In this document: positions 47,713 to 59,139 of the stretch, one piece after another
Numbering within the stretch: position 1 is the stretch's first letter
How the letters are laid out: each line of letters starts with the position of its first letter
Assembly (NCBI GenBank): GCA_013368315.1
Contig: JAACJM010000018.1
Coordinates: 620,001 to 684,000 of the forward strand
Direction: 5' to 3'
DNA from: Tetrapyrgos nigripes
Taxonomy: Eukaryota; Basidiomycota; Agaricomycetes; Agaricales; Campanellaceae
Length of the DNA: 64,000 nucleotides
Translations under genes and position numbers: made by a program
Notes under the pieces: generated by a model
What the model saw: only the letters and a program-made list of their open reading frames with translations
Told to the model about the DNA's origin: nothing
Database searches by the model: none

Positions 47713-50053
47713 TTACTCTAAGTCATCATCAGACATCGGCAGTGCCCCGACCTCCTCCACTACCTCAACTCCATCACCACTCGTGTCATTGGTTTCGTCA
47801 TCCAGCTCCTTGAGACTGAGACCCGCATTGTAGTCCTTGGCACGCGATACCAGTTCATCCCACTTCGGATCCTTAATTTTGGTAGTACTTTTGTGATATG
47901 CTTCGTAAATCTTCCTCCACTTGAGTCCGGTGAACGCGTCTTGCTTGATAAACTCGCCTGTCTTCCAGGCCTTGAGAGACCGGCGAACCTACACCGTTGG
48001 TTAGTAAGAAGGAAATTTGAAATTGTTAAATACTTGCCGCAGTTGCACAGTATGCAAGCATACCAACTGGCCTGCCATAATCCACGTCCGCACTGCGCGT
48101 GCGATGTACATGGTATGCAAAGAGTCGGACAATTAGGAAACCGTACCAAGAGCCAATAGGGCCATCCTGACCAGCACACATTTAGAGAAATGGTAATAGC
48201 ACTTTTTGAAAAGAAAAGAACGCACCTCAGCCCATGGATTCTCATACATGAAGGCACTGTCCTTCAGCAAATCTTGCACATATTCTGCCACTGGTCCTTG
48301 GCCTTAACTTCCTTCAGGAATTCTTCCTTCCACATCTTTTTGACTAATGAGTTCGCTCTCCTACCAACTAAGCTTCTGTGGTGGCGAATGGTGTTGTTTG
48401 GCTGGGAGAACAAGTCAAGAAAAGCCACGCTGTACTGATATTAAAATAGAGAGAGACGTACAACGTTGAGCACTGCCGGGTGCATTCTGCAAAATTGTTT
48501 CTTTTCATTGTCAAGATATGGATTGAGAGCTGGGAAGGTTTTGTTGAAAGCTTTAAAAATGACACCGTTGAGGTCGGAATGGGCGTTGGTACCAAATTGG
48601 TTGCTAAGGTCGCTGACCAGACGAGAACAGCACTGTTAACCTTCAACTTGAAAAGGGTTTTGTCCGAGTCGATAAGAGGAAGGTGATTAACTTTGTAGTC
48701 GGTCTTCTTCAACGCCTTCCCATGCTCCTTGCGGTCAACCTTGTCAGCGTTGACAGGTGTGAGTATGACATCCAGCTCTTTCTGTAACCACATGTCAGCA
48801 TTCAGTCACATGGGAGCTATTGTCATACCTTTTCCACATTGGGTTTCTTCCCTTTCTTCCCTCTCTTCACTGCCTCAAGGACTGCAGGAGGATCCTCAAC
48901 TTCAAGTTCCCGAATACTGTCCGCTTCCGTTTCAGCAGCAGCCTGCGACGATATAGTAGCAAATTGTTGTTTCTTGAATTTGCGCTGCCATTTGGGTACA
49001 AGACCTCCGATTTGGTCATTCTTAGACCGCTTCGTATCGACACTAGCACTGTAAGTTAGCACCAATAATAGAGGCGGGTCATACACTTACGGTTCATCCC
49101 CTACTGCAGATAACTTTCACTTGGTCTTTGGGATGGTAGCTTGGGGGTTGGGCAGTGCTGCTGAAGCTGGGGTGTTTTGAGATACAGGCATTGGTTTAGC
49201 TTTGGTAGGTGCAGGGACTTTTTGAGCCTGGGTATGTGTTGCCTGTCCTTCCCAATACTGTCAAGTTATTAATTGGTTAGTTCTGACGTTGATGCTGCCT
49301 CTAGAAATGTACCTTTGCAGCAAGTTTTCTACCTGAAGATTTAATCTTCTTCGCAGCCTTTTCTTTCACAACCATCTGGCGTATGTGGGCTTCCATATCT
49401 TCTTCAGTCTCTGACGCCTCATCATTGGATGCTATGTACTGGTCCGAGTCCTTCCCGCTGCCAGCTGATCCAGTTTCATCCTCATGAGCTGCCTCTGCGT
49501 CAACACCCATCTCATCAGAGTCCACCAACATCACTTCTGAAGGTGGTGTATCGTCCTCATTGTCCCACTCGTTGCCAAAGTCAGAGAGCGGTCCTTCAGA
49601 GTCTGTGCCCACAGTTGTGGCTGGTGGCACTTCTATGTCGGAGAAGTCCTCCATAGCTTCGTCTTGAAAGGCTTGGAGGGTCGGTGATTCAATAATGGGA
49701 GTGGGGATATGAGCAGGGGCTGGAGAAGGTTTCTTGCTGGGTTGAGGTAAGTCCTGCTGGGCCAGCTCAATGTCGGGATTGATTGAGTAAAGAAGCTCAT
49801 CTTTTTTAGCTTGGTCCTTCACCATGTCAACAACCATAACAGCTGCACTGCTCCGTTGTTGGTTTTTTGCCTCCTTTTTTGCCCTCTTCGCATTCTTTAG
49901 GGCGTCACTCTGCACATGTTTTTCCTTGGTTATCTGCTTCCTCTCCTCACGTGACATCTTGATCTCATTTATGGGAACAGGTACACAGGTGGTGGTAGAG
50001 GACGTTTTGGCTTTGAAGACATGGCTGGACAAGAGCTTCGTGGTTGTGGTCAC
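47713..50053 (-). CDS. DUF6532-like fungal protein
   Basis: Minus strand, several exons. The first about 250 residues (50053-49301) are disordered, with a basic coiled segment (SREERKQITKEKHVQ), Pro-rich linkers and an acidic stretch. Middle exons (about 49260-48440) include a basic KRSKNDQIGG segment and KLVNSA/FKLKVNSAVLVW. The C-terminal folded part reads GPVAEYVQDLLKDSAFMYENPWAE, GPIGSWYGFLIVRLFAYHVH, RSLKAWKTGEFIKQDAFTGLKW, ending in an acidic tail at stop 47713-47715. The LLKDS...P.. block followed by a late conserved region resembles DUF6532 proteins expanded in mushrooms, as far as I can recall. Introns include probable GC-AG donors (GCAAGT near 48036). No definite frame break. Function unknown. 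Confidence 0.55.
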
Positions 50054-51423
50054 AAAGCAGGGTCAATGTGCCAGCGGCACCAACTAGGAAAATTTTGTAG
50101 AAAGTTTGGGACTACTTAGTAAGCTGTTAGTGTTCTTGACTCTGGTCTTTCAACTTCTCAGATTAGGATCTGACTCGTCCTCATAGATGGCCATTCACAA
50201 CGTTTTGTGTCCATATCCCGAACTTGGTTGTCGGAAACGATTCTTCTGACAATCAGACTGTACAAACCACGTAAAGAAGAAACATTGGCTGGTCCTTCAC
50301 ACTCAACCCACTTCATCAGCTCAAACAACAATGCAATCACTTGAGCCAGAACAATTTGATGGCGCTCACTTCAATGATTCCCCTGGTCCATCTTTCAGCT
50401 CACAACGGTCATCTCCCAGTGTTGAGCCAGTGGACAATGTAGTGCACTGTGGGGACTGTACCCACACATATCATCCCTATCTTACAGGTATTTTTTTGCA
50501 CTTGATTAATTGACTAGCAGTCTAAAGTGTTTTATAGGGATCAAATGTGATGCAAATGGTACTCCTCTCCCTCCTGGTGCTCCACCTCCTCCTTTCCCAC
50601 CTATTGAGAATGTGTGGGCTCCATTTGAAGATGAGGTCCAGTTTCGGCTTTCTGACTTCCTATACCGCAAGGTAGAGATGTCCCAGAGTGATATTGACTA
50701 CCTCATGGAGTTATGGGTCCTCTCAGCTGCACGGTATGGTGGAGAATCCCCTTTCCAAGACCATGATGAAATGTACAAGGCCCTGGATAGGATACGTGTT
50801 GGCGGGGTTGCCTGGGAGTGTTTTGAGTCAGTGGTACCCGAAAGCTTGCCTGTAGACGCTCCTCAATGGCTTTGTCGATCATATCAAGTCTGGTATCGCA
50901 ACACTGATGCTGTTGTTAGCAATATGCTGGAAAACCCCGAATTTGCACAAGATTTCAATGTCAGTCCTTTGGTAGAGCGTGACACCAATGGCCACTGTCG
51001 CTGGTCGGACTTCATGTCTGGTAATTATGCCTTCAACCATTCTGTGAGTGTCTACTCTACTTTTTCTGGTGGTGGGGCTCATTTTATCTTTCTAGTCCCG
51101 CATCTTTGTGGAAACACCATCAACTGAAGGTTCTATGTACGTACCAATTATGCTCAGTAGTGATAAGACAACTGTGTCTGTTGCTACTGGGAATGTCAAA
51201 TATCATCCAGTCTATCTATCTATTAGTCTTGTCTTCTAGCTATAGGGCTGTGTAACGCGACTTTTCAGATGAGCTAATCAATGAGTTCCCACGCCTGCCT
51301 GGCAGCGTCGTCCGACTTCTTTGCCTTCTTACCTCCATGTTCTCAGCAAACGACTCTTCCTAAAACTGTTTAAGCCGTGCTGTGGACCCTTTTCTATAGT
51401 TTTCATGTCAAATCCATATCTCT

Positions 51424-53672
51424 GGCGTGATACTGATGGCTACAATATGCTTAAATCTATTGTCTCCCGCTGTATACTGCAATGGCCCAGCGGTTTGCAT
51501 GATTACCAAGTGCAGTACCTCCCTCTACTTCTTGATAAGGGCGATATCCTTCTTGTTACTGCGACAGGGGACAGAAAATCCACATTCTTCATTGTACCTA
51601 TCCTCGCTCACCTCAAAATTCGCTCACACCCGGACTTATACCTATCTCAATTTACCCACAATGTCAAGGAGCATCCCGTTGGCATTGTTATAACACCTAC
51701 AAAAGGTCTAGCAGCTAGTATAGTACGTGGTTATCTCACTTCATGATGGCTTACTCAATTTTCTCTCTCAAAGGTTGCGGAACTTGCTGAATTTGGATTG
51801 TCCGGCATCTCTCTCTGTCGAGAAACTATTGCGGACTTCAGACTTCAGGGAGTCGACTATGTCAAGCTCGTTTGTGCATGTCAGACTTGGCAGGTGATTC
51901 TCGTGGACCCGGAGCACCTCACTGAACCCGAGTGGCATCAGATCTTCCAGCATAAAACTTTCATCAGGAACTTGGTGTACTTCTGCATTGAAGAAGTGCA
52001 TCTCATCCATACCTGGGGAGTCGATTTTCGAATTGCCTTTTCATTCATTGGACGATTTGCTCGGAGCCATCTTCCCGAAACGGTACCAATTCTTGGGCTG
52101 TCGGCTACCTGTCCCCCTGGCCGTTCCACCAATGACATTTGTACATCCCTGGGCCTCAGACCGGGTGCCTTTACGCTTGTTTGGCGTTCCAACGAACGCA
52201 AGAACATCCAGCTTATTCTCGAGATCCAGAAGCGAGCCGGAAAGTCTCACAAGTATGCTCAGATTGCCGACTATATTCGCAGTGGTCGCAAGACCATCAT
52301 CCATGTTAATACCCTTCCTGATTGCTACGACATCTTCCTATTTCTGTGGAACCTTCTCCCCTCACATTGTGATAAATTGCGACGTATACGCATGTATCAT
52401 GCTCTCTGCACCGACACCTACAACCGAGAGACATTCCGACTTGTTGACGAAGACCCGTATCTACAGGTTGTCATTGCGACCATCAGATTTTCCAATGGCA
52501 TCAATAGGAAGAAGATTCTTGATAGTATCTCATGGGGATTTCCAAAATCCTTGGACTTGTTTCTGCAGCAAGTTGGCCGAGTAGTACGTGGTGACGATCC
52601 CGATGTGATTGGCAGGGGTATTGCAATTGTTTCGTCGAATTTGATCAAGAAAGTCAAGGAATATATACAGCGTAAGTGTCTCAATCCTTCGGTTCCTTTC
52701 CTCGAGTAATCTAAATCTAATCCTGACCGTTAAGTGTGAGATGACAATCCAAATGGTACCACCGCTACATCAACAAGGCGCTCGAAGGGTCAGAAGAAGA
52801 AAGGGATGGAGGATCCGGGAGTTATAGACGAAGGCACTGCCTTATATATTTCTGAGGAGTACTGCAAGACGGCATGTGTCAACCAATACTATGCGAATCC
52901 TGACACTTCAACATCCTTCCTCGATTGTCATGCAGCACATCGACCCGTGTATTGCAAGCCATGTGCAGTGCGGCATGATAAATACTACTCGTTCACTCTT
53001 CCTCCATATCCCAATGACTTTGTACTTCCTCCTGATTGGCTGCCGACTCCGCCATGGCCAAGAGCAAAATCAAAAAAAGCTCAGAAGTCCCATACCAACC
53101 TCGGGAAGAAGGAACGCGAAGACTTGCGCTGTTTCTTCCTTGACTTTCGCCGTGTTGTTTGGAAAGAAGCTGACCTCGACTCAAACATTGGACTTTGCTA
53201 CTATCCTGTGGCATGGTTTTTCCCCGATTCGTTGATTAACGAGATATTAGACAACTTCTTTCTTATCGACACACTGGATGCACTTGTTATCATACTCAAG
53301 TTGAAATCTTGGCATTTTACGGATCGGTATGGGTCTCACTTGTTTGAGCTATTAGAGGTTTGGAGGGAGCTACTGCGTTGGTGGAGAGGAGAAGTTCACA
53401 ATGGCAAGGGTAGGAAAGGTAAAAAATCTAATTCTTGTGATAACGAGTCTGGTGATCATACAGACGAAGATATGGAGTCCCCTGCTCAACCGTCAAGTCC
53501 TATCCCTATCAATCATTATACTTCCTGTCCAAATCAACCTGGCCCATCACGAGCACCGCGAGCACCACGAGCACCAAGGCAACCCCAGGAAAGTGTTGCT
53601 GCTGTAACTGCAACATACGGTCCAACTAGAACAACCGGCAGAGGTGAGTTACTTGTGCTCTTGATGAGTTGA
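51424..53672 (+). CDS. RecQ-type SF2 helicase of the 6.37-kb transposon
   Basis: The coding-like region starts about 51424 (LWRDTDGYNML); a true start upstream, perhaps ATG 51281 via an intron, is not settled. Order: QWPSGLHDYQ motif 0-like segment; Walker A ATGDRKS (51561-51581); TPTKG motif Ia; intron about 51724-51774; motif II IEEVHLIHTWG (51987-52019); SATCPPG motif III; then the second RecA lobe with HVNTLPDCYD and QQVGRVVRGDD (motif VI). After an intron near 52671 comes a Cys/His zinc-binding domain (CKTACVNQYY, C-x2-C at CKPC) and a Ser/Pro-rich tail ending at 53672. Two catalytic motifs deviate: Gly to Arg in Walker A and Asp to Glu in DEVH, so ATPase activity is doubtful. Belongs to the RecQ-like helicases multiplied in mushroom genomes. 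Confidence 0.8.
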
Positions 53673-53687
53673 TTTGTACTAACCTGA

Positions 53688-56600
53688 TTAAAGAGGCATT
53701 GAGGCTTCTGATCCAGACCACTGACTATCCTCATTGTCTGTGCAAGGAGTACTTTCAAACTTGACATCTTCTTGAGAATCGCTGCTGCTTTCTTGATCCG
53801 TTGTTATATCCTTGTCTGTAGTAGGGGTACCAATATTTGAGCCAGAGTGATCATACAAACTGGTTGTTGAGCAAGGTGAGCCACTAGCGTCTTCATCACT
53901 ATCAGACTCAGGTTCAGAGTGGGATGATGCGCTATCACCGTCAGAATGAGGAGCTGGCACTGTACGAGTGGAATTAGACATGGTAATGTCAGTATCAATC
54001 GAATGTCGTTTCTTCTTTTCCTCTTCGATAGCCGAAATGAAATCAGCACGAGCAGAAGACCTTTCCAAGAAGGAGTCTAGAATGCGGTTGTCAAGGGCTT
54101 CAAAGCCCTTCGATAGTAGATCAAGTGCCGTATGATCGTAATTTCTTTTTGTGCGGAATAAGTGTAATTCGGTGGACTTGAAATGTTCAAGAAGCACCCT
54201 GATCTCGGGCGACATGTCTGGAGATGTGTGAGTACCTGAGCGATGTCGTAGTCCAAAGGCGCTTCAAAAACGGTCTTGATTACAATAAAGTTATAGCAGT
54301 TTGGTGCGATAAGTGCCCGATAATGAGGATCGTCAAAGTTACCACCCGACTTGGGGACCATGGCCTCGAGCTGTTTGTTGATATGCTCTTGAAGCAAATC
54401 ACGTTCTTGTACAGAAAACCCAAGTTTGATTAGATAGTTGTCGAGTATGGTATTGCGCAGTTCAGGTGAAGACTCGTACTCCAGCAAACAATAAAGTTCT
54501 AGCAGATAGTTAGCATAGTTTTTGTGTGTGGAACCGGCGAACATGAATATCCAGATCTCAAGTATAATATCAGTAAATGTTCGCTGTAATCAGAAGCTGT
54601 AGTTAGACTTACGAAGAATTGCTCCATCATTCTACCAACATCTCCATCCCGAATGGCATAGTCCATAAACATCCATGATCCAAATTGCATTTTGAAAAGA
54701 ATGGAGTTCGCAAGACTGCGATCACCATTAAAATCCTCATCGCTGGGTATAGCAGAAGGCTCTGAAACCACAGGAGGTATCCACAGGCTTCCTTCCTTAA
54801 TCTTGAGCTGAGCTGGAGCCGTAGAGTGGCTGTCAGCAGACAACGCAAGTTCAAAAGCTCGTGGAGAGGCATATCGACGTGCAAGATCACTGCCTATCTG
54901 AAGCAGAATATCAAAGGAGGGGGTAGAGCTGCATGTTTCAAGGTCTGCAAAATGCAGACGTAGGTCATCGGTATCAAAATACACGCTATTAGGTGTCTTA
55001 AGCTCAACTGTACCCTGACTGAAAACATTGAAAAACCACTTACCGCCAACAATCGAGTACCTCAGCCGTCCACATAAGTTTCATACCATCAGACGTTGGG
55101 TAATGATCACATTTGCTAAGGTTAGCCGGGCGTTTGAGATTGACATATCCAAAAAGATGCGAAAGGGATGAGGGATCAGCGGAAGCAGCATTGCCAAAAT
55201 GGTTCTTGGAGATGGCCTTGAGAGCAGTATCTTTGGTATGCCAGGCTTCGGGGGTAACGATCTTGTTGCGGAGAGATGCTTGATCATCATCTGATGATGT
55301 CGTTACCAGGAACTTCTGCAAACAATGAATGGTCGAAAATGTAGCACCATCTCCACCAATCCAACGCAGTTGACCATCTGATGTCTCCGGAATCCCATCT
55401 GAGTTTCAAAGTCCTCCATGCAACGTTGCATCCCATGCGGCTCCAGTTCTTTTTCTCCGTTAGTGCTGAGAGGTTGAAAGATAGTCTGATGATCGTCAGG
55501 AATACGGTGAATGGCAATGGGTGAAGTACGAAAACACGTTATTATCTCTTTCCGGTAAGAATGCAGTTGAGGTATATAGTTGACCAGGACTTGAGTCCAA
55601 TGGAGGGCAGCGACGTTGTGGTGATGATTTCAATCGATGCTGTCAAAAATCGATTGAGTCGTCATAGTCATTCACTTCTTCTCGGTGACAAGTGACAGGT
55701 ATTTCTAAAGATTCCAGGCACCTGGATTACAGTTGAGAAGCTTGATGCCTGTTGCACCAGTCCCGCACATCAAAACATTTTGTCGAAATAATCCTCCCTC
55801 ACGCTTCTGGCATTCCTGTTGCGTATTATCAAGGATGTAAGCCCAGCCAACCTTGCCCTTCTCAGAAAACTCCTTGTTCTCAGTACGGAGTTGCTCGAGT
55901 GCATGACTTGTTGCTGATTTCAAAGCCTTGCGTGTAGTATCATCAGAAACTGAAATACCCATACAAGAAGAGAGACGTTTGGTGTCGGTATGGGCCTGGG
56001 AGGCAAAAAGATGAACCCCGAGGGGCATGGAAAGATAGCCAACTGCTAGCCTATTGCGAGATACAATTAAGGGATTAATAGAGGACAGAAGGAGCTATGA
56101 CCAAGGGTTTTCATAAGTATTACTAAGTACTCGAGAAGTAAATCAAGTCACTTACAGGATTTAAAGGTCTTCCTCTTCGTGTTATCTGTTGTCCACCTTT
56201 GCGAGGAATGGCGACGTATTCAAGAAAGCTGGACATATATGGAGCATGCTGTTTAATTGTCTGCATGGATAGTTCCGGCGAAAACGCAAGTATATCATCC
56301 CAAGTCATATCCGACGATGATGTGCGAGCTTGGACGTCTTGATCAGATTTCGCCTGGTCAGTCATGAGGACTCCAATCTCTCTGTAGGTGCGCTCAGCAC
56401 AAAGTTGAGCTGCATGAGCAGAGATGGCAACTCGAGCATAGTGAATGTCGGACAGGTTAGCTGTTAAGGAGAAGCTGCTAGCACGCTCCACTTTGTTCTT
56501 TGAACGACGACTTGGATAAGAGCTCCGGTGCTGATAGATGGAGGGAAGAAGAGAGCTGAATGAGACCTTGGTATGGCCTGATAGAAACATGTGGATAGAA

Positions 56601-57367
56601 TCCCGGTGAAAGGAAGTCCGCAAATCCTTATCCTTTCTCCGAGGTCGCGACCAGAAAGCAGCTGCCAAAAACTCTCCGAAGGAACCGAAATCGTTAGATA
56701 TGCGACGCAGATGCTTGTCTACGAGCTCCAGCTTTGCAACGAGTTCATCGTGTGCTCTCTGTTCCGGAGTTTTCTTTGGTTGAATTAAACGAGTTGGGTG
56801 AGGAGGTACAGAGTCTGCTGAGAGCCGAGGCAAAGACAGAGGTGCGGGAGGTATTGGAGGTGTTATAGATGAGCCAAGAGCATCGTCTTGATTGAATGGT
56901 AAGGCAAAGGAGGTTGTGTGAGGTGAAGCAGTGGTTGAAGGAGAACATGATGGGAACTGAGGTAAATGTAAGGGAAGTACGTCGTCCGGTGACAAGGGAG
57001 GTGTTGGAAGTTGATGAGAAGGGAAGCAAGGAGCATATTGCAAGGTATTTGTTGTAATCTGAAGCAATGAGCGAGAATGGTTGGGTGTTTCGGTCAAAAG
57101 AGAGTTGGAATGTTGTGCCAGCAGGAGCGAAGCAGAAGTGGCCGAACCAGTGCTATTTAGAGATGCCTGAGAGCTCAGAGCGGGATGGCTTGAAGTGCCC
57201 GTTGGTATGAAGGAATTGGAAGCATGTAAATGATAGTTTTCGGCATCGGGAGGAGGAGTTGGTATCAGAGGATTGGAGACGGGTGTATCTCGCCAATTTC
57301 TGCGTTTTCTCTTGCTAACTGCAGGTTTTTCTTGGGAGTTTGTCGTGTCTTTAGGCATTGAGAGCAA
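53688..57367 (-). CDS. DUF6589-like protein of the 6.37-kb transposon
   Basis: Minus strand, ATG 57367. Residues 1-200 are Ser/Pro/Thr-rich; then DKHLRRISNDFGSFGEFLAAAF and a helical region to 56150. Later exons: about 56055-55705 (NRLAVGYLSMPLGVHLFASQ, VGWAYILDNTQQECQKREGG), 55640-55050 (VAALHWTQVLVNYIPQ, LRWIGGDGATFSTIH, EAWHTKD), 54984-54500 and 54560-54077 (WIFMFAGSTHKNYANYLLE), and an acidic tail ending at 53688. The DNTQQ...R, GGDG.TF, W.T and FMFAGSTH.KY strings match my memory of DUF6589 proteins; acidic residues in DN and GGDG could be catalytic in an RNase H-like fold (inference). Around 55395 the good frame shifts by one base (MEDFETQMG to IPETSDGQ), so this copy may be broken. Confidence 0.7.
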
Positions 57368-58502
57368 TTATATGGACTTTGAAGCAGAATGAATGAGATT
57401 TCCAACTAGTATGAGGCAAAGAGTGAGGAAAAGGTGCGACGCGACGTTGTGGAAGCCTTGGGTCTGGCCGTGGGAACTCCGTGATTAGCTCATCTCAAAA
57501 GTCGTGGCGCACAGCCATTCACTTTGCGACCAGACTACATATACACACACAAAGTGTAGCTACTGTGTATATCGTCAGTCTGGCTATGCAAGACTATCTA
57601 TCTATTGGAAACATCCGAAATTCTGCACGGAGAGTTCATTGCAATGGCGTGATTCCAATTGCCTTTCTCACTATACCAAAATGTGAGTCTTTAGAGCCTA
57701 TTTTCAGCAGTTACTGATGATTTCCATTTGGCAGCTGATCGTAAATACGATAATGATGTTTCTTTCTGTTTATTCAAGAAGAAACTCTACCACAATTCCC
57801 TGGCCGCTATCCTTCATTCCTTGACCCCACACATGACAGACCCTGTACTGCGACACTGTCCCGATGGATACTATCGTCAGGCTATATATGACCTGGGTGC
57901 ATTTATAGCCGATTACCCAGAACAAGTCTTATTCTCATGTGTCGTCCAAGGCTGGTGTCCCAAGTGTGTTATTCTTTTACTTGATTTATTTTTCTATGAC
58001 TCACTGTGATACAGATGTATGGCTAAGCACAATGACCTTGATGGAGGGGGCCCCTCACATACTCGTGATGATGACCAGAGGTTGTGAAGGGAGCTCCTAT
58101 GGGTGATGTGGTGGTATGTCAGCTACTATCTCTACTATTTTTTCTCAACTCTTACATTTTATTTTCGTCATATAGCCTTTCACTGAGCATTTTCCAAGGG
58201 CCGACATCCATGAAATGCTCTCACCGGATCTATTACACCAAATTATCAAAGGAACCTTCAAAGACCATCTTGTTGAGTGGTCATGGGAGTACCTAGTAGT
58301 GAAAGAGGGTGAAGCTCGTGCAAAGGAAATCATGGATGATATTGACCGCTGGTATGTTTATCTCTCGTTCTCTCATTTCATAGTCAATAACTTGCTCTAT
58401 TTAGGCTGGCTGTAATACCACCATTTGCTGGCCTTCGTCGTTTTCCTCATGGCTGTCGCTTCAAGCAGTGGACAGGCGATGACTCCAAGGCCCTCATGAA
58501 GG

Positions 58503-59139
58503 TAAAATATATGTCCTTATAGCAAGATATATTGACTGATTCTGTTTCACGGATTACGAGGCCCCTTTAGGGCCAAGTTAACTTAGGTCGACTTCGAAAA
58601 TTGTCCCATGGCTTCAAGCTCCCACCCCTTTTCATTGCCACTCAACCGTATCAGTGTTGTGGTTAACCCTTAAGCCTTAATTAACTTAAGGCTAAATAGT
58701 TAACAAAATAAGACCTAACTTCATTGGATTCAGAACTTAAGGGTTAATTAAGGCTTAGAATCTCCACGTGATCATATTTCTGTAAAGCAATTTTCTTTTG
58801 GTGGACTTACACACATCACTACTCTATATCATGGCTTTCTTGCAGCCTTCAAATTGACTTGGAGGGTGTGAAAGTGGATTGCATTAAAACCAGGGAACAG
58901 GCTAGACATACACAAAGTGGGACATATACTGAAGAGCAGCTACTGATGGAGTTGTTACAGCAGGAGGCAGAAGAGGAGATACCTGATGATACAGCTTTAG
59001 AGGGATCTGGTGATGAGTATGATGGGTAAATCTCTCTGAAAAATTTCCTCTTAAACTGATCTTAATTATACTTAGTTAAAAATGATTATTAACTACTTAA
59101 GGCCTAACTTGTCTGAGTGCCCTTAATTAAGGCCTTAGC
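58503..59139. other. Repeat-derived spacer with palindromic AT-rich element
   Basis: 58557 begins a CGAGGCCCCTTTAGGGCC end (TA at 58555-58556) matching 37495 for about 95 bp and then breaks off. At 58661-58761 lies an inverted repeat built from GGTTAACCCTTAAGCC and CTTAAGGGTTAATTAAGG. 58850-59028 has a short coding-like plus-strand stretch (TREQARHTQSGTYTEEQLLMEL) ending in an acidic run, probably the tail of an unrelated transposon protein. TTAATTAAGGCC words recur near 59100-59137. Confidence 0.5.

Follow-up and report, generated by a model that had tools for sequence, protein, structure and literature searches.

A decayed DNA transposon, probably of the AcademH kind, with a RecQ-like helicase gene and a DUF6589 gene inside a Plavaka gene of Tetrapyrgos nigripes

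The Academ superfamily of DNA transposons is listed as DDD/E, and AcademH and AcademX are sister branches within it. AcademH encodes a helicase and makes target-site duplications of 9 or 10 bp, and AcademX has a nuclease in place of the helicase and duplications of 3 or 4 bp (PMC10045372). AcademH elements are low-copy and occur in Basidiomycota, Ascomycota and Mucoromycota (PMC10799480), and non-autonomous Academ elements are widespread in Marasmius oreades, a fairy-ring fungus (PMC8290104). KolobokH transposons, described as restricted to fungi, encode a RecQ helicase downstream of the transposase domain (PMC9587614). Here we describe a 6373-bp element in a 64,000-nucleotide stretch of Tetrapyrgos nigripes DNA (contig JAACJM010000018.1, positions 620,001 to 684,000; hereafter the window) that holds a RecQ-like helicase gene and a DUF6589 gene and is very probably a decayed AcademH element, a DNA transposon of the cut-and-paste type. 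The founding paper of AcademH is reportedly Kojima 2020 (Mob DNA 11:15). The borders of the element and the gene that it interrupts are as follows (ORF, open reading frame).

51224..57596, no strand assigned: whole element, 6373 bp, its ends common to two deletion derivatives, with an uninterrupted paralogous Plavaka site
51215..51223, plus strand: target-site duplication, left copy, TCTATCTAT
57597..57605, plus strand: target-site duplication, right copy, TCTATCTAT
51224..51231, plus strand: left terminal inverted repeat, TAGTCTTG
57589..57596, minus strand: right terminal inverted repeat, TAGTCTTG here and TAGTCTCG in the two sister copies
50510..51223, plus strand: 5' part of the interrupted Plavaka transposase gene (PF18759 in ORF 50510-51124, E 6.4e-21; junction peptide)
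57597..58006, plus strand: continuation of the interrupted Plavaka gene (PF18759 in ORF 57695-58006, E 2.3e-27; junction peptide)

Read directly from the sequence, the element ends in TAGTCTTG on the left and CAAGACTA on the right and is flanked on either side by the 9-bp duplication TCTATCTAT. The maximal direct repeat at the insertion is 13 bp (ctatctatctatt), and because the target is a short TCTA-type repeat, the window copy taken alone places the border only to within a few bases. The border was fixed at 51224 and 57596 because two deletion derivatives share these ends in unrelated flanks. Each derivative is exactly 1157 bp long (C24:657946-659102 and C152:90-1246), corresponds to window positions 51224-51742 fused to 56959-57596 with ~98% identity, and carries a 9-bp duplication of its own, CGAGTGTGT and GGAAAAGGG, respectively. 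An earlier, sequence-only reading of this DNA had proposed exact borders for a mobile unit and a duplicated target, and both are upheld. Its claim of inverted ends stood in part: the ends are inverted over 8 bp in the window, but their perfection is best read as partly decay because both sister copies, with TAGTCTTG at the left end, have TAGTCTCG at the right.

Removal of the element and one duplication restored the Plavaka frame (...KYHPVYLS joined to IGNIRN...), and the joined 67-amino-acid junction peptide matched PF18759 positions 104-165 across the junction (E 1.2e-25). An uninterrupted paralogous Plavaka at C41:154768-154965 aligned with the rejoined sequence over its full 198 bp at 95% identity. 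The rejoined frame and the paralogue, uninterrupted at the same point, bear out the proposed insertion inside a Plavaka-like transposase gene. The genes between the ends and the putative catalytic codons are listed below.

51405..53672, plus strand: RecQ-like SF2 helicase gene (Walker A TGDRKS, motif II EEVH)
53688..57358, minus strand: DUF6589 gene in several exons, the putative DDE transposase
55828..55830, minus strand: codon of the putative catalytic D (ILDN)
55349..55351, minus strand: codon of the putative catalytic D (GGDG)
54386..54388, minus strand: codon of the putative catalytic E (LLQEH)

The two genes lie tail to tail and meet near 53.7 kb, in the convergent orientation that had been claimed for them. 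The start codon of the helicase gene and its introns, one near 51723-51773 and one near 52672-52740, were placed by eye, and the true end of the gene may lie past 53672. Its family matches were DEAD (E 2.2e-6), Helicase_C (E 5.7e-4, slightly below the curated cut-off) and recQ_fam (E 3e-22, below the family cut-off). In a Pfam scan of 10 ORFs, no match was obtained for the C-terminal helicase ORF 52740-53669, and the "zinc-binding tail" previously ascribed to the helicase reduces to a cysteine-rich stretch of this ORF seen by eye. In the same scan three ORFs matched DUF6589 (PF20231; E 3.1e-23, 8.2e-14 and 2.1e-26), two N-terminal ORFs of the DUF6589 gene gave no match, and no hAT domain was among the matches.

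The predicted fold of DUF6589 resembles RNase H-like DDE transposases, with Hermes, a hAT transposase, as the best structural match, and the D, D and E residues are conserved. The model and the conserved residues make DUF6589 the likely DDE transposase of the element, as had been suspected, and the fold prediction then proposed as a check gave the expected RNase H-like match. The likeness to hAT lies in this structural model; hAT elements have 8-bp duplications and no helicase, and the element has 9 bp.

For the wider family, all TAGTC...GACTA pairs 250-9000 bp apart were listed in the collected loci and in window positions 50001-59000; the loci had been chosen by similarity to the element or its genes and are not a random sample. 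Among 495 such pairs, 473 lacked a flanking repeat of at least 4 bp, two had a repeat of 6 bp, 19 of 9 bp and one of 10 bp. Fourteen distinct insertions were left after removal of overlapping loci and of the second copy of a site present on both C262 and C308. Thirteen have 9-bp duplications (window, C80, C24, C152, C262/C308, C6, C429, C58, C229, C296, C67, C92 and C145) and C17 alone has 10 bp; C192, whose duplication matches at 8/9 positions, was excluded. Among them, the two-gene copy at C80:71887-78057 (6171 bp) is near-intact, with one frame change in the DUF6589 tail; most of the interior is gone from copies that still carry the helicase (C262/C308); and C145, C296, C17 and C67 are miniatures of 353-388 bp. 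Recurrence with shared ends, proposed as a check by the earlier reading, is supported. No element ends were located in the merged loci C107, C24, C88, C41 and C30 with 1.5-kb flanks, and their right ends probably lie beyond those flanks.

Two of these sites may be noted in their own right. One and the same helicase-bearing deletion copy occurs at C262:5287-9201 and C308:6918-10811, near flank and duplication included, and represents either a duplicated segment or unmerged haplotypes. The C145 insertion (L015 374-726) is a separate 353-bp miniature; its ends are TAGTC...GACTA, and it carries a 9-bp duplication of its own, ACCTCAGGA.

The element was assigned to AcademH because the two traits with readable published definitions, the helicase and the 9- or 10-bp duplication, both fit: a RecQ-like SF2 helicase lies between the element ends, and duplication lengths throughout the 14 insertions fall at these two values. 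The DDD/E transposase trait is represented by the predicted RNase H-like fold and the conserved D, D and E. The comparison is one of descriptions, and occurrence in Basidiomycota is a further likeness, whereas the right-end hairpin of the window element (below) and the DUF6589 label do not appear in the portions of the AcademH descriptions consulted. The link to AcademH suspected from the sequence alone therefore agrees with the published description as far as consulted, but the proposal of a new transposon type is unsupported, since helicase and duplication length were already published for AcademH. The element is a new family within a known kind, placed by published description.

Because the likeness to AcademH rests on duplication length and a helicase as shared defining traits, an independent superfamily could merely resemble AcademH, with a DUF6589 transposase and a separately acquired RecQ. 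We consider this improbable, since both traits fit AcademH, which is known in Basidiomycota (PMC10799480). A KolobokH transposon would account for a fungal element with a RecQ helicase, and these two points are its likeness to the window element, but KolobokH as described has its helicase downstream of the transposase domain, and in the window element the helicase has a gene to itself, convergent with DUF6589. Kolobok elements target TTAA, in contrast to the 9- or 10-bp duplications observed, and a KolobokH identity is very improbable. Helitrons make no target duplication and are contradicted by the 9-bp duplications. AcademX, whose nuclease is of the XPG type, was considered by way of a nearby nuclease gene and rejected; none of 10 XPG_I matches lay on a DUF6589 contig (compared by eye), and the duplications are 9-10 bp.

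The association of the two genes was assessed across the genome, where match counts are lower bounds (best candidates scored). A PF20231 profile search gave 108 matches in 54 clusters. With the window helicase as sole query, 52 helicase clusters were found, with DUF6589 within 8 kb in convergent orientation at 19, in divergent orientation at two and absent at 31. Three helicase searches together gave 80 clusters. Of the DUF6589 clusters, 22 of 54 had a convergent helicase within 4 kb and 3 of 54 a divergent one, against a chance expectation of 0.35 neighbours in any orientation, and 29 of 54 had no helicase-like match within 4 kb. DUF6589 was absent within 4 kb at 55 of the 80 helicase clusters, some of which are deletion copies (two excluded helicase remnants would bring these figures to 57 of 82 and leave the DUF6589 figures unchanged).

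These data show that the helicase/DUF6589 pair is a recurrent unit and that a good part of both gene sets stands alone. The claim that the genes recur as convergent neighbours is borne out; the claim that the transposon explains their abundance is supported by the 22 convergent clusters but limited by the helicase-free, divergent and DUF6589-free ones. The genes could instead be unrelated neighbours, the helicase being a host gene outside the mobile unit, as the 55 helicase clusters without DUF6589 and the multiplied group of subtelomeric RecQ helicases in another mushroom (PMC7473861) might suggest. That reading is scarcely credible: in the window copy and in C80 the ends enclose the whole pair, C80 already contradicting it, and helicase-bearing deletion copies retain the ends and the 9-bp duplication.

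Two other arrangements were seen. Divergent DUF6589 and helicase-like genes lie within 2.2 kb of each other at C230:33482-37564, C351:1750-5089 and C94:49641-53294, perhaps a second architecture. Long-frame DUF6589 copies with no helicase-like match within 4 kb (C37:25621-27068, C328:72370-73819, C8:942305-943770, C189:86499-87883 and others) perhaps form a helicase-free lineage. Two protein searches for reach beyond fungi gave at least 47 and at least 31 matches (best 7994 and 7995 candidates scored, respectively); going by name, the matches of both are all from agaric-type fungi except for one unnamed match in each. Close relatives of the window DUF6589 protein include proteins from Marasmius.

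Compared with its two sisters, the window copy has 18 unique changes; C>T or G>A accounts for 14 of these, all but one (13) in CpG. Since this is the pattern expected from deamination of methylated cytosine, methylation probably silenced the copy before it decayed. Read against P0001, its DUF6589 frame has three in-frame stops at ~55630-55707 and changes phase near 55365 and again near 54257. Its Walker A motif reads TGDRKS, as opposed to TGDGKS in the C80 relative, and the R occurs in the window only (25 helicase loci with readable motif I, some overlapping). Because of the DUF6589 stops and frame changes, the altered Walker A and the CpG decay, the window copy is probably dead and unable to encode a working helicase/DUF6589 pair.

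The C-terminal DUF6589 frame change occurs at nearly the same place in the window (near 54257) and in the C80 copy (L079 near 4394), near residue 911 of P0001, and the helicases of these two copies are ~52% identical. Two explanations were considered: an intron, for which the single candidate (80 bp) was unconvincing, and a programmed frameshift, for which slippery sites were judged by eye.

The element also carries subterminal features, of which the hairpin was not seen at the left end of the window copy.

51246..51293, plus strand: left arm of a 48-bp imperfect subterminal inverted repeat
57469..57516, minus strand: right arm of the same repeat
57530..57583, minus strand: hairpin of the right end (stem CCAGACT...AGTCTGG), starting 13 bp inside the tip

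The hairpin was aligned in six right ends picked from different copies, two of them close sisters. In this alignment 98.1% of cells pair, a value reached by 0 of 500 shuffles, and controls slid by 1-3 columns paired at 61% at most. Three pairs were changed on both sides (reached by 10/500 shuffles), and the number of further pair types was unremarkable (265/500). In DNA folding, four right ends gave z values of -2.7 to -4.6, and the window left end, the sole left end folded, gave +1.2. Conservation of the hairpin by paired changes is suggestive and no proof because six sequences are few and two are close sisters.

In the mechanism we propose, the DUF6589 protein would bind the subterminal repeats and the right-end hairpin, its D-D-E RNase H-like site would cut both element ends, and the protein would join these to the target at a stagger of 9 bp. 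The RecQ-like helicase would help by opening up DNA, whether at the ends or the target or in the course of repair, and the small copies would be moved in trans. A bolder form of this proposal holds that DUF6589 is the AcademH transposase, that the ends are unequal, and that the right hairpin, opened by the RecQ-like helicase, serves as a loading site in single-stranded or cruciform form, such that transposition needs helicase-made single-stranded ends and is no simple double-strand excision; we regard it as unlikely, though worth stating.

Within the literature searched, DUF6589 was not named in any paper and PF20231 had an unrelated mention alone, so assigning DUF6589 to the AcademH transposase may be unpublished there. 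Our data suggest that the transposase of AcademH is DUF6589, whose function Pfam gives as unknown. The family can now be tied to a defined unit with its borders and relatives, and to a likely catalytic site. In this genome, RecQ-like and DUF6589 genes would owe part of their abundance to the transposon and not to expansion of host genes, and other fungal genomes can be screened by the convergent pair, TAGTCTYG ends and a 9-bp duplication.
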